A stretch of 38,244 nt of DNA from a virus (IMGVR_UViG_3300047547_000454:1-38244), one strand, 5' to 3'; shown: positions 3,121 through 38,244, counted from the stretch's first letter. Program-made: numbers and translations. The notes: a model not told the origin generated them from the letters alone.

Positions 3121-3732
3121 CTATGGTGTAATTGTCCATCTATTTGTTTTTCTGTGTCCATGACCAACCTGAAATCCTTCAAGCTTCGCATGACATGATC
3201 TACAAAGAGTTATTCCGTTTTTCACATCAAACCTTAATTCTTCTTTGTCCTTCCAAGGAATAATATGGTGGGCGTGTAATCCCTTTTCTGTTCCACATTT
3301 TGTGCATTTTTTTCCGTCTCGTTCCTTTACTGCTTCAGACCATTCTTTAGTTATCAAAGAGTTTCTTTTTGTGCTTTTTCTGGTCTTTTTTCCTTTATTC
3401 CAAGGGATCCTTCCAGTCTTTTTTCCTTTCATTGGATGGCCATTGTCGGCTATCCATTTTTTCATCCATTCGCTATGGGAGGTATTTTTCCTTCCTGTTA
3501 AGGTAATGGCGATCTTTCGTTTATGCTCCTCTGATTTGGGTCTAGAGTTAGCCTCACGAATCCTCTGCTTTTGATATTCACCCATTGGGATTAATCGTTT
3601 TCTTCCCCTTCTTTTGCTTGCTCCATTTCTAATATTTTCAATCGCTATTTCAGAAAAGTTCCTTTTTTTTCCTATTTTTGATTGTCTAATCTTTTCCTTA
3701 TGCTCTTCACTTAAAATCCTTTTTTTTCTCAT
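3121..3732 (-). CDS. Free-standing HNH homing endonuclease with NUMOD3 repeats
   Basis: 203 residues, rich in lysine and arginine. Several NUMOD3-like segments (LSEEHKEKIRQSKIG, KSEEHKRKIAITLTG, then PWNKGKKT) precede a C-terminal HNH domain with CTKCG, HAHHIIPW, and NGITLCRSCHAKLE. Both zinc CxxC pairs and the HH/N/H core are intact. It is similar in plan to the gene at 1318-1830 but clearly diverged, so it is a separate acquisition or an old duplicate. It lies between two tail genes with only a few bases on the downstream side. The reaction is expected to be site-specific DNA nicking or cleavage that drives its own spread. Confidence 0.9.
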   Translation of the reverse strand: MRKKRILSEEHKEKIRQSKIGKKRNFSEIAIENIRNGASKRRGRKRLIPMGEYQKQRIREANSRPKSEEHKRKIAITLTGRKNTSHSEWMKKWIADNGHPMKGKKTGRIPWNKGKKTRKSTKRNSLITKEWSEAVKERDGKKCTKCGTEKGLHAHHIIPWKDKEELRFDVKNGITLCRSCHAKLEGFQVGHGHRKTNRWTITP

Positions 3733-19347: not shown

Positions 19348-19438
19348 TTAAATTCCGGTTGATCTTAAGTTTTGAATCCAAAGATCGTTTGTAATGCACT
19401 GGCCTTGGTAAAACGAGCAACCCGCTGTATGTCTTAAC
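19348..19438 (-). CDS. Major capsid protein, exon 3 (C-terminal 29 residues)
   Basis: After splicing of intron 2 the first base (G at 19438) completes an ATG codon begun by AT at the end of exon 2. The exon then reads LRHTAGCSFYQGQ and CITNDLWIQNLRSTGI, stopping at TAA (19348-19350). The ending N-D-x-W-I-x-N-L-R-S/A-T is the usual C-terminus of N4-gp56-type capsid proteins, which proves that this piece belongs to the capsid gene and is not the tail of a separate reading frame. Without splicing it would be joined to meaningless intron sequence. Confidence 0.88.
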
Positions 19439-20234
19439 CATTCTATTACTTTCAGCAACAGCTTGCTTACTGACCTATTTCTAGGCGGGGGAACTGCTTC
19501 GAATTCCCCTCTACAGGTTTCCTCTGTAGTTTGGACTATCGCATCTCCTTTCGGAGTCCAAAGATTTAGTCTCTCACGCTGGCAAATTTGTTCTATGCTC
19601 TTCTCCATGACATTTACGACACACCCAAACAACTTCCAAAGGTTTGGTGTAATCATTGTGGTGAGCCTGTGGCATACAATTCGTTTTACATCTTTCACAA
19701 AAATCAGGTTTGATAAGTTGTCCAAACTTAACCGCGAGAGCAACATAGTTGTGACATTCGATCTTCTCCCGATTTTTTTTGCGATAAGCTTTAGTATTTG
19801 CATACCCATTTTTCTTTCTTGATTCTTTAAGCTTTTCAAGGATTTTTTCTTTGTTCCTTTGATAATAAGCTCTTTGATTAATAAGAATTTTGTATGGATT
19901 ACGTTTAGCCCATCGTTCATGTTTAGCAAGACAGATTTCAGGACGGCTCTTGTAATATTCTCGACCTTTAGCAAGTCGACATACTTTACATTGTTCTGCG
20001 TATCCATTTTTTCCTTTCTTGCTTTTGTAAAAACTACTGTATTGTTTTTCAACCTTGCAAACAGTACAGATCCTTGTATCTTGCATAAAACCCCCTTTGA
20101 TGGAGTATTATTATATACTGCAGGATTCATACTATTCAACATATTTACCTTGCGCCTTATCGCCTTAAGCTGCTTGCTCGTAGGCTTCTAAGTCAATTAC
20201 TTCGGATTTTACATGCACATTTAAAAAGATTTTT
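19439..20234 (-). ncRNA. Group I intron 2 in the major capsid gene (796 nt)
   Basis: 5' site: exon ATGCAT (20235-20240) pairs with intron GTGCAT (20213-20218), with the U.G pair at the cut, forming P1. 3' site: the intron ends in G at 19439. Core elements on the minus strand: R/P7 AGACTAAAT (19564-19572) and S/P7' GATAGTCC (19533-19540) pair as GACTA/TAGTC. P8 is CTCC-GAAA-GGAG (19545-19556), P9 is CTACAG/CTGTAG (19511-19529) and P9.1 is GGGGAA/TTCCCC (19488-19509). The HNH frame ends two bases before the R element, the usual place for intron-encoded endonucleases. The subgroup is not assigned. Confidence 0.9.
19574..20086 (-). CDS. Intron-encoded HNH homing endonuclease
   Basis: 170 residues inside capsid intron 2. 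An N-terminal zinc finger (RICTVCKVEKQYSSFYKS, then EQCKVCRLAKGREYYKS) is followed by a very basic helical spacer with repeated KNREK-type units. A C-terminal HNH zinc domain follows (DFCERCKTNC, then AHHNDYTKPLEVVWVCRKCH). Both CxxC pairs and the catalytic HH and downstream H are present. The family cuts the intronless capsid allele so that the intron is copied in. Translation must come from unspliced RNA; a weak purine-rich site precedes the ATG. It is unlike the two NUMOD3-type HNH proteins elsewhere in this genome. Confidence 0.92.
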   Translation of the reverse strand: MQDTRICTVCKVEKQYSSFYKSKKGKNGYAEQCKVCRLAKGREYYKSRPEICLAKHERWAKRNPYKILINQRAYYQRNKEKILEKLKESRKKNGYANTKAYRKKNREKIECHNYVALAVKFGQLIKPDFCERCKTNCMPQAHHNDYTKPLEVVWVCRKCHGEEHRTNLPA

Positions 20235-20551
20235 ATGCATGGATCATTGTTGTACCCAGGCGGCAAGTAAATAAACTTAGCCTTGCCTCCAGCTTGCCAA
20301 ACAACTTTGTAAGCTTCTTTAGCTGCTACAAAGCAGTTAGCAACGTCTTGTCCGAGTAATGAAGCATTAGGAGTAACAGAGCCTTGTTCAGAAACAAAGA
20401 ATCTCACGTTATTCACTCCGCCCCATTCTGTTGCCAGAGTGTCTCGGATGTTCGGATACTGGAATTTACGGGTAAACCCGAGTATTCCATTCATAACTGG
20501 GATCATGCGAGTTGTAAGCATACAACCGTATGAATCGCCAATTGGAGCTGT
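20235..20551 (-). CDS. Major capsid protein, exon 2 (105 residues plus 2 bases)
   Basis: Begins with the ACA codon of TAPIGDSYGCMLTTR directly after the intron 1 terminal G, and ends GYNNDPC plus AT. Family members show a comparable FGTAP-I-x-x-x-Y stretch followed by a helix, FxxxxQYP, EWG.v.nvrf.vs..gs..pnas, and IY.PP.YsDP. These are all present here (FQYPNIRDTLATEWG, VRFFVSEQGSVTPNASLLG, KFIYLPPGYNNDPC). Read without splicing, this segment looks like a 129-residue gene with a TTG start and a short false tail. That reading is rejected. Confidence 0.92.
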
Positions 20552-21048
20552 CAATTCTGTTACTTTTGAGACCTAAATTTCTGTCAATTCCTAACTGGGT
20601 GACAGTTTTAGGCGGGGAAGCCTATTGCACTTCCCTCACTGTGTTTCCACAGTGTTCAGAGCACCGCATCCATAATATTTAGGGTCTTTTCTTTGTGCTT
20701 CTTGAAAAGCAATCCATCCCTCTGTTTTTTCAGGATGTTCACTTATATTCCAAGGAGGAGGAAAATATCCTATATATTCATGGTCTTCTCGCTTGCTACG
20801 TTCAGGCTGATTAGGATGGAGATGTATTTCCCAAGTAGGGTTTAAAATTCCATCTCCAGCATAGTAAGTGTTTTCCTTTCCACAGGAATGCACATATGCC
20901 AACAGATTGAATACACCATTAGGATTTTCCCTAATCTCCCTTTCCATTTCACATTTATCACACATCATAATCTTGCCCCTTGTTGTCTCCGTCTTTACGC
21001 TGAGAGTTTCAAGTCTATTAGAGAAGATTTTAATTCGGCACACACTTT
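20552..21048 (-). ncRNA. Group I intron 1 in the major capsid gene (497 nt)
   Basis: 5' site: exon TTCGGT (ending at 21049) pairs with intron GCCGAA preceded by GTGTGT, giving P1 with U.G at the cut. The exon 2 start ACA can pair with TGT next to it (P10). The intron ends in G at 20552. The 3' core parallels intron 2: P7 AGCAC/GTGCT (different bases from intron 2 but still complementary), P9 CACTGTG-GAAA-CACAGTG (20637-20654), P9.1 GGAAG/CTTCC, then the shared CCGCCTA. A long nested hairpin (CCTAAA/TTTAGG around CTGTCA/TGACAG) closes the 3' end. It carries an open frame of unknown family. Confidence 0.88.
20636..20968 (-). CDS. Intron 1 encoded protein of unknown family
   Basis: 110 residues from the ATG at 20968 (a second ATG is next to it), preceded by AAGGGG; the frame is open upstream to 21043 but there it overlaps the 5' splice region. 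It begins MMCDKCEMEREIRENPNG and continues VFNLLAYVHSCGKENTYYAG, WEIHLHPNQPERSKRED, HEYIGYFPPPWN and ends GALNTVETQ. There is one CxxC and a possible third cysteine, but no HNH, GIY-YIG or LAGLIDADG signature. Its last codons read through the P7 and P9 elements of the ribozyme, so RNA folding and translation compete. It could be a degenerate or new type of homing enzyme, or a protein unrelated to homing. Confidence 0.6.
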   Translation of the reverse strand: MMCDKCEMEREIRENPNGVFNLLAYVHSCGKENTYYAGDGILNPTWEIHLHPNQPERSKREDHEYIGYFPPPWNISEHPEKTEGWIAFQEAQRKDPKYYGCGALNTVETQ

Positions 21049-21588
21049 ACCGAATTTCAAATCTGCTTCAACAATCTGTGTGATATACTCACCAGAGTTG
21101 TTTTGCAGAGTTGTTACAACGTCGTCTACGTCCGAAATATTCATTTCGGTGGGCAAATCGCCGTTTGTTCCGCCAACGCAGTTAATAACAGAAGCTGTTG
21201 CTTCTAGTTCGTCACGAACGAGGGCATCTTGCGTTTCGCGTAATGCTTGTCCTAATCTGGCTGCTGCACTATTTAAAACTGGGTCTTCATTAGTAATTGT
21301 GACTTGTCTAGTCAACACAATATAAGTAGCATAAACACGAACCCTGCAATCAACGTCAACGCGATTAAGCTGCTGAGCTGGAGGGTTAGTTTGCGCATCA
21401 TCCAAGGGAACTTGGAATAGATCCAGCCTATCATAGCGGGACTGTCTATCAATGAACCCTTGATTATCTGGAAGCTCCACTGGGGAAGCAAACAGCATAT
21501 GCACAAGGTTTCTCTCTGGTGTAGAAAGTAGCTTAGCATTATACCGCTGCTGAACCTGTGGAGGCATTGTTGAAATGCTCACGGTCAT
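21049..21588 (-). CDS. Major capsid protein (N4-gp56 family), exon 1; full gene joins 21049-21588, 20235-20551 and 19348-19438
   Basis: Exon 1 encodes 180 residues from the ATG at 21588 (MTVSISTMPPQVQQRYNAKL) to LKFG. Typical features are the helix PPQVQQRYNAKLLSTPERN, the beta segment DVDCRVRVYATYIVLTRQVT and the long helix SAAARLGQALRETQDALVRDE. The three exons total 540+317+91=948 bases, giving 315 residues in one frame, close to the usual family length. The protein would form the icosahedral shell with an HK97-like fold. It follows the scaffold gene by 16 bases. Reading on past the splice site gives only 17 foreign residues and a stop, so an unspliced gene would yield a useless fragment. 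Confidence 0.9.
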
Positions 21589-37990: not shown

Positions 37991-38244
37991 TTAGGTTGCT
38001 AACAGCATCTTTTGATATTCAAATGTACAAGCCCAGTTATACGTTGTAGCAAGCAATCCTGTCACACGAATTCTTACGGTTTGTGTGCCAATGTCAACAT
38101 CAGCGGTAAAAGAAGCTAACGTATCCGCTTTAACATCGGCGGTGGTTATGCTTACTTGAGTAATATTGCCGGCTGTTGTGCGACGTGCGACAATGGTAAA
38201 GGTACCCCCTGTCGTGTCTGTGTGGGCAGTATTTGAGCCTATAA
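37991..38244 (-). CDS. Right-handed beta-helix tail protein, C-terminal end (continues from 1-1310)
   Basis: This segment holds the last codons of the junction-spanning tail gene; 38118-38244 duplicates 1-127. The unique part (37991-38117) encodes the C-terminal ASFTADVDIGTQTVRIRVTG and LLATTYNWACTFEYQ, then KMLLAT and TAA at 37991-37993. The frame is the same as that of 1310-1 when coordinates are joined at 38117/1. The join is therefore real and the full protein has 478 residues. The ending matches the domain at the end of the product of 8036-8782. Confidence 0.85.
   Translation of the reverse strand, partial: IGSNTAHTDTTGGTFTIVARRTTAGNITQVSITTADVKADTLASFTADVDIGTQTVRIRVTGLLATTYNWACTFEYQKMLLAT
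38118..38244. repeat. Terminal direct repeat, right copy (circular overlap)
   Basis: Identical to bases 1-127 over its full length. See the left copy: it marks closure of a 38,117-bp circle. Confidence 0.95.

Follow-up and report, generated by a model that had tools for sequence, protein, structure and literature searches.

The major capsid gene of the phage analysed here is split by two group I introns, which belong to a family in which translation running into the unspliced intron follows one fixed reading frame and often ends on Ala-Ala. Judging from the sequences, it is likely that such introns encode ssrA-like degrons that remove the truncated capsid protein made from unspliced mRNA, the degradation itself being putative. 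In the proposed mechanism, a ribosome translating the unspliced message would enter the intron and read 15–31 codons, always in one frame, and the reading would end on a short tail in which hydrophobic residues are followed by Ala-Ala or by some other small residue. This tail would imitate the C-terminus of the tmRNA (ssrA) tag, and the host ClpXP or a similar protease would destroy the tagged fragment before shell assembly is poisoned. As a consequence, introns would be tolerated at little cost in the most highly expressed and assembly-critical gene. Within the E. coli ssrA degron, the terminal Ala-Ala-COO matters most to ClpXP, and appending YALAA to GFP is enough to have it degraded (PMC7652416).

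Organization of the capsid gene

The window, that is, the whole stretch of viral DNA analysed (38,244 nt), carries the capsid gene on its minus strand (Table 1). The first-pass annotation, made from the sequence alone, had read it as an N4-gp56 capsid gene split by two group I introns, and this reading, including the exon boundaries, is supported by the joined frame, the profile match, the empty sites and the covariance-model matches. When joined, the exons (540 + 317 + 91 = 948 nt) give a single frame of 315 codons, and the spliced protein, aligned with NCBIfam TIGR04387 (N4-gp56) as had been suggested, scores 106.1 bits against a cut-off of 60 over its full length (profile positions 4–317 of 324); it also matches the major head protein phrog_1357. 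In dozens of IMG/VR relatives, with 80–90% identity, residues 1–315 run uninterrupted, and both exon junctions are contiguous DNA in intron-free relatives, representing exact empty sites.

On the minus strand, 19348–20142 also reads as a spurious ORF of 264 aa that crosses intron 2 and continues into exon 3, and gene callers would misannotate this region. Elsewhere in the window, a 127-nt direct terminal repeat is common to both ends (1–127 and 38118–38244), and the record is therefore probably a complete circular genome cut at the assembly k-mer. Two more HNH endonuclease genes (1318–1884 and 3121–3732, minus strand), one with a weak NUMOD3 match, are flanked by genes resembling tail or fibre genes.

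Table 1. Position of the capsid gene, its introns and their elements in the window, and of the short insertions in other loci
Feature	Position	Strand	Basis or remark
Major capsid gene, whole, three exons	21588-19348	minus	N4-gp56 family
Capsid exon 1, 540 nt, residues 1-180, ends ...LKFG	21049..21588	minus	intron-free homologues, TIGR04387
Group I intron 1, 497 nt, phase 0	20552..21048	minus	5' domain E 1.2e-12; 3' core E 1.7e-8
Capsid exon 2, 317 nt	20235..20551	minus	joined frame, intron-free homologues
Group I intron 2, 796 nt, phase 2	19439..20234	minus	covariance model 90.6 bits, E 1.6e-22
Capsid exon 3, 91 nt, through stop codon	19348..19438	minus	joined frame, TIGR04387, homologues
P1 of intron 1, exon TTCGGT / internal guide GCCGAA, U.G at cut	21034..21054	minus	sequence
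P1 of intron 2, exon ATGCAT / GTGCAT, U.G at cut	20213..20240	minus	sequence
P3 5' strand of intron 1, TCTTCTC; partner GAGAAGA 20790-20784	21021..21027	minus	P3 covariation, 162 introns
Intron 1, revised (probable) P7 5' strand G(T)AGCA 20799-20794 and P3 3' strand GAGAAGA 20790-20784	20784..20799	minus	also in L095
Intron 1, P7 3' strand TGCTC, revised (probable) assignment	20663-20659	minus	
Intron 1, P7'-P9-P9.1 core region	20611..20709	minus	model R1, 38 bits, E 1.7e-8
Intron 2, P7-P3'-P8-P7'-P9-P9.1 core	19484..19580	minus	model R1, 90.6 bits, E 1.6e-22
Intron 2, P7 GACTA / TAGTC	19571-19567 / 19538-19534	minus	
Intron 1, 111-aa ORF, overlaps P7-P9 core	20636..20971	minus	without recognised domain
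Intron 2, 170-aa ORF	19574..20086	minus	phage endonuclease family phrog_2340, E 1.5e-34
Intron 1, in-frame tail of unspliced product, KVCAELKSSLIDLKLSA-stop (...KLSA-stop)	20995..21048	minus	frame of 194 read-through introns
Intron 2, in-frame tail, IKIFLNVHVKSEVIDLEAYEQAA-stop (...EAYEQAA-stop)	20165..20234	minus	first codon AT|A spans junction
Short insertions in ten other capsid genes	L300:2835-2883; L290, L264, L224, L307, L309, L310, L355, L378, L389		

Splice signals and ribozyme core

Both window introns have a P1 with U.G at the cut, as had been seen in the sequence at first pass, a core with covarying P3, P7 and P8, and a terminal G. The covariance model R1, which describes the P7–P9.1 core, was built from 30 introns of other phages only and shows compensatory changes in 17 of its 23 pairs. 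A scan of the window with this model gave exactly two places, one per intron, which agrees with the earlier claim that the two introns share a 3' core. Additionally, across 162 introns the P3 strands form on average 6.5 of 7 pairs, versus 5.3 when the strands are permuted (largest permuted mean 5.4), and P1 was present in 203 of the 218 introns of sets A and B. Because of the P1 pairing, the covarying core and the exact empty sites, both insertions are considered real group I introns, with self-splicing predicted.

The first-pass annotation had proposed Rfam Intron_gpI as a check, with the absence of any covariance-model match counting against the introns. Taken literally, this check went against them, since RF00028 gave no match in the region at gathering or loose thresholds, whereas the purpose-built model matched both. 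RF00028 likewise misses related intron-bearing loci with the same core; it is insensitive to the whole intron family, and membership of the class does not hinge on the Rfam cut-off. Rfam is thus blind to these introns, and common tools leave the capsid gene fragmented with spurious ORFs. Since Rfam misses the introns and the capsid appears in pieces, capsid-based virus surveys may discard phages with such intron-split capsid genes.

Regarding P7, the pairing proposed earlier holds for intron 2, whereas AGCAC (near 20698), the 5' strand proposed in the case of intron 1, was probably misassigned and has been replaced; AGCAC is absent in the intron of locus L095. Intron 1 carries a canonical CAGCCTGAACG...GAGAAGAC element at 20809–20782, whose P3 strand pairs at 7 of 7 positions, and L095 has the same element. 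With the CAGCCTGAACG element and its fully paired P3 strand located there and repeated in L095, the P7 5' strand of intron 1 probably lies at 20799–20794, rather than at the place given by the earlier reader or by model R1. With this revised P7, P8 would therefore contain an insertion of about 110 nt.

Each intron also holds an ORF. That of intron 2 likely encodes a homing endonuclease, given its family match, and domain and profile searches with the 111-aa ORF of intron 1 gave no known domain. Part of the latter (YFPPPWN.SEHPEKTEGWIAFQEAQRKDP) resembles stand-alone small phage genes (L095:4023-4125 and L096:418-486), a similarity that would fit the capture of a gene fragment within P8.

Distribution of the intron family

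The finding of two introns in one capsid gene had been called rare at first pass, a view that does not hold for related environmental phages, in which multiple family introns per capsid gene are common: two were found in 78 loci, three in 37, four in 4 and five in 5. The family was collected with a pattern for the intron P3–P4 region, independent of the host gene and blind to frame (more than 120 introns), and with a second frame-blind pattern, disjoint from the first, which gave 97 further stretches. An initial 3'-end pattern, CCGCCTN{20,50}RAAGTAAYAG, was abandoned as too unspecific, its matches being mostly without a capsid link. A capsid match was present in 192 of the 222 loci with a family intron, and 77 occupied residue-and-phase positions were mapped on the capsid, a number inflated by alignment noise; the placement of sites on the alignment of divergent capsids is approximate.

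The site of intron 2 is filled in L081 by an 80% identical intron of nearly full length, and a third site, close to residue 301, is occupied by introns in L071, L074 and L079. The capsid genes of L300, L184, L346, L362, L367, L380, L396, L257 and L333 contain four or five family introns each; L300 harbors five in addition to a short insertion, with exons down to about 13 codons. A few members lie outside the capsid, for example in a portal-like gene (L158, L365) and an NrdD-like gene (L236, L328), these gene identities being assigned by eye; they follow the same reading frame, with the tails EAEVALS, EALA and ASVMVA. In the searches performed, no member of this family was found in cultured phages. 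A match in a Desulfovibrio phage adjoins an NrdD-like gene.

A single reading frame into the intron

The reading frame was followed in 237 introns in which homology of the exon reached the splice site and the splice site was given by P1. In 43 of these, translation from the exon halts near the junction, within the P1 loop or close to it, and each of the three frames is represented, whereas all 194 read-through introns pass the conserved P3–P4 segment in one frame. It was thus observed that the introns of this family do not simply halt the ribosome at the splice junction. The single frame was recovered in three disjoint sets (57/57, 76/76 and 61/61, the last matching neither pattern), the second being a replicate of a frame prediction written beforehand (82/82 under the first cut-off); as the introns share descent, these raw counts overstate independence, and the deduplicated result is 177/177. 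Furthermore, intron length compensates for insertion phase: the distance from splice site to motif, modulo 3, is 0 in the 144 phase 0 introns, 2 in the 13 of phase 1 and 1 in the 37 of phase 2, with zero exceptions. The read-through tails comprise, with few exceptions, 15–31 codons.

It could be argued that the fixed frame serves only to halt ribosomes ahead of the catalytic core, the sequence of the tail being meaningless. Most group I introns are known to have an in-frame stop shortly after their 5' end, which protects folding (PMC3073962). The T4 td intron, with a stop as its first codon, and the 43 early-stop introns of the family, halting in all three frames, would agree with this explanation. 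However, it appears improbable, as the P3–P4 linker of most members (CTAATTGACTTG) offers stops in both other frames, yet the 194 introns use the third; the TAA of the linker is used by two introns and its TGA by none. Stop placement also leaves unexplained the Ala-Ala termini, the synonymous codon variation and the ALAA and LAA tails in unrelated RNA contexts described below.

The position of the stop is related to the length of the truncated product. Early stops lie at capsid residue 124 or before in 37 of 43 cases, versus 69 of the 194 read-through introns (p 1e-9); tails go to long, assembly-competent fragments, and early stops are found where the truncated product is a short fragment. The family thus includes functional introns that stop early, and the tail is dispensable.

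Splicing could alternatively time capsid production, as suggested at first pass, a suggestion that the analysis neither supported nor contradicted, or the unspliced product could be a functional minor capsid form or part of a translation-coupled splicing switch. Translation of the upstream exon does help the splicing of T4 introns (reviewed in PMC3073962), and a nascent tail with a frame-dependent effect on splicing is conceivable. Nevertheless, since the truncation points are scattered from about residue 24 to about residue 308, the fragments cannot share one structural role, the C-terminus being their only common element, and these possibilities are regarded as exceedingly unlikely. The evidence favours, instead, a fail-safe by which the products of unspliced translation would be eliminated.

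C-termini of the unspliced products

The tails of the window end in KSSLIDLKLSA (intron 1) and KSEVIDLEAYEQAA (intron 2), so that only intron 2 has an Ala-Ala terminus (QAA), the LSA of intron 1 being a partial fit to an ssrA-like degron. Among the 194 tails of the family, 129 end in Ala, 90 (46%) in Ala-Ala and 57 (29%) in Leu-Ala-Ala, compared with 0.9% for Ala-Ala and 0.4% for Leu-Ala-Ala in random readings of the same loci; in the two other frames of the introns, Ala-Ala occurs in 2–3%. Six tails end in ALAA, including EQYALAA, EHYALAA, YEYALAA and CDYALAA, at different sites. With 90 of 194 tails ending in Ala-Ala, the family fits what an ssrA-like degron requires at the C-terminus, namely Ala-Ala or something close to it on an accessible tail about five or more residues long. 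The tmRNA tags in two MAGs containing related phage contigs end in LQAA and VLVA, the host link of these contigs being putative.

The tail residues might instead be a by-product of RNA structure, if the P5 hairpin or its tetraloop needs a GCNGCNTAA-like sequence. Indeed, the P5 hairpin contains the tail codons, its loop in some cases resembles GNRA (GTAA), and tails ending in Ser or Asn fall in a base-paired stem. This explanation is nonetheless very doubtful, since in the LAA codons of the commonest length class the first and second positions are nearly fixed (0–0.45 bits of variation) and the third is nearly free (1.6–1.9 bits), with all four Ala codons and all three stops in use. The early-stop introns of the family do without the sequence: at the tail position, in the motif frame, Ala-Ala occurs in 0 of 43, versus 90 of 194 read-through introns (p 9e-11; 0/40 versus 80/177 after deduplication). 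Moreover, the short insertions and the mycobacteriophage introns discussed below lack such RNA and have the same ending, and an RNA by-product leaves the compensation of insertion phase unexplained.

RNA constraints do account for other parts of the tail. KSxxIDLE was rejected as a conserved protein motif, KSxx being the P3 strand, which covaries with its partner, and IDL the J3/4–P4 RNA; the L095 intron also contradicts such a motif by stopping at its first codon. The IDL part is explained by the P3/P4 RNA constraint, and protein-level conservation in the tails is limited to the frame and the terminal residues. A sizeable subgroup of tails ends in VVAIS, EVVFN, LLS or similar instead of Ala-Ala, and in this subgroup the P5 hairpin may set the last residue. 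The many tails without an Ala-Ala end, the functional early-stop introns, and the T4 td and nrdB introns, which have no tail, are points against the degron.

Short insertions and mycobacteriophage introns

Ten capsid genes carry an insertion of 32–79 nt after ...AQMAFFG (residue 89) that has no ribozyme core (Table 1). These mini-insertions have a P1-like pairing, TTCGGT/GCCGAA (TTTGGT/GCCAAA in L378), and a terminal G, and in most of them a second hairpin pairs the insertion with the downstream exon. Although their in-frame readings are unlike in sequence and length, 10 of 10 end in [LQE][AV]A (LAA, QAA, EAA, LVA or QVA). Downstream of each copy that was inspected, a complete group I intron is present within about 25–110 nt, and the mini-insertions are possibly removed by this neighbouring ribozyme. 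Translational bypass, as in T4 gene 60, was considered for these elements and rejected, because take-off and landing codons mismatch in several copies and residues would be lost; their P1 and terminal G, as in introns, further contradict it.

Similar endings are found in the capsid intron of LittleE and the tail-gene intron of Baka, two cluster J mycobacteriophages, for which splicing was proven by RT-PCR (PMC3706429). The in-frame reading into the LittleE intron ends in ...WNSVATAAA-stop, and that into the Baka intron in ...LSDDLAAAAA-stop. It seems somewhat more probable than its opposite that an in-frame 5' tag mimicking ssrA has arisen repeatedly in mobile group I introns as a general self-insurance in genes whose truncated products are toxic (capsid, tail), frame-selected across sites and in unrelated lineages, and that the core-less mini-introns share this tag and depend on the ribozyme of another intron. 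If true, selfish introns would persist in abundant, assembly-critical virus proteins by tagging their failures, not by perfect splicing. This would link mobile introns with host protein quality control and would predict which introns enter which genes.

Comparison with known systems

The introns described here resemble those of LittleE and Baka in being group I introns of a virion gene, in which the exon ends in U and the intron in G, often with a homing endonuclease ORF, and in having an in-frame tail ending in Ala residues, which goes unmentioned in the section of PMC3706429 on those introns. They differ in capsid fold family and host group, and in number, with one intron per gene there and up to five here. 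A further group I intron of a phage structural gene, in the Tuc2009 capsid gene, is cited in the same paper. With the T4 td and nrdB introns, the family shares the ribozyme class and the P1 architecture; those genes are non-structural, and in-frame reading ends at the very first codon of the td intron and after no more than a few codons in nrdB. Orf142 of Twort likewise belongs to the phage structural genes with group I introns. A reference title listed in PMC6669764 reports three introns in a Twort gene.

Like the tmRNA (ssrA) tag, a ClpXP degron, the tails have an (L)AA-COO end and are appended to incomplete proteins, several being exactly the YALAA of E. coli. Unlike that tag, they come from the intron itself, in cis, and would be translated only from unspliced message; neither a stalled ribosome nor tmRNA is needed. 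In the literature searched, mostly outside subscription journals and preprints, no such degron device in self-splicing introns was found. The nearest parallel comes from yeast, where the HAC1 intron begins with a degron, reported by Di Santo et al. as described in PMC8002603. Nevertheless, the HAC1 intron is, by that description, a eukaryotic, Ire1-spliced regulatory intron of one gene, whereas those considered here are mobile phage introns, predicted to be self-splicing, that occupy many sites and would carry a different degron.
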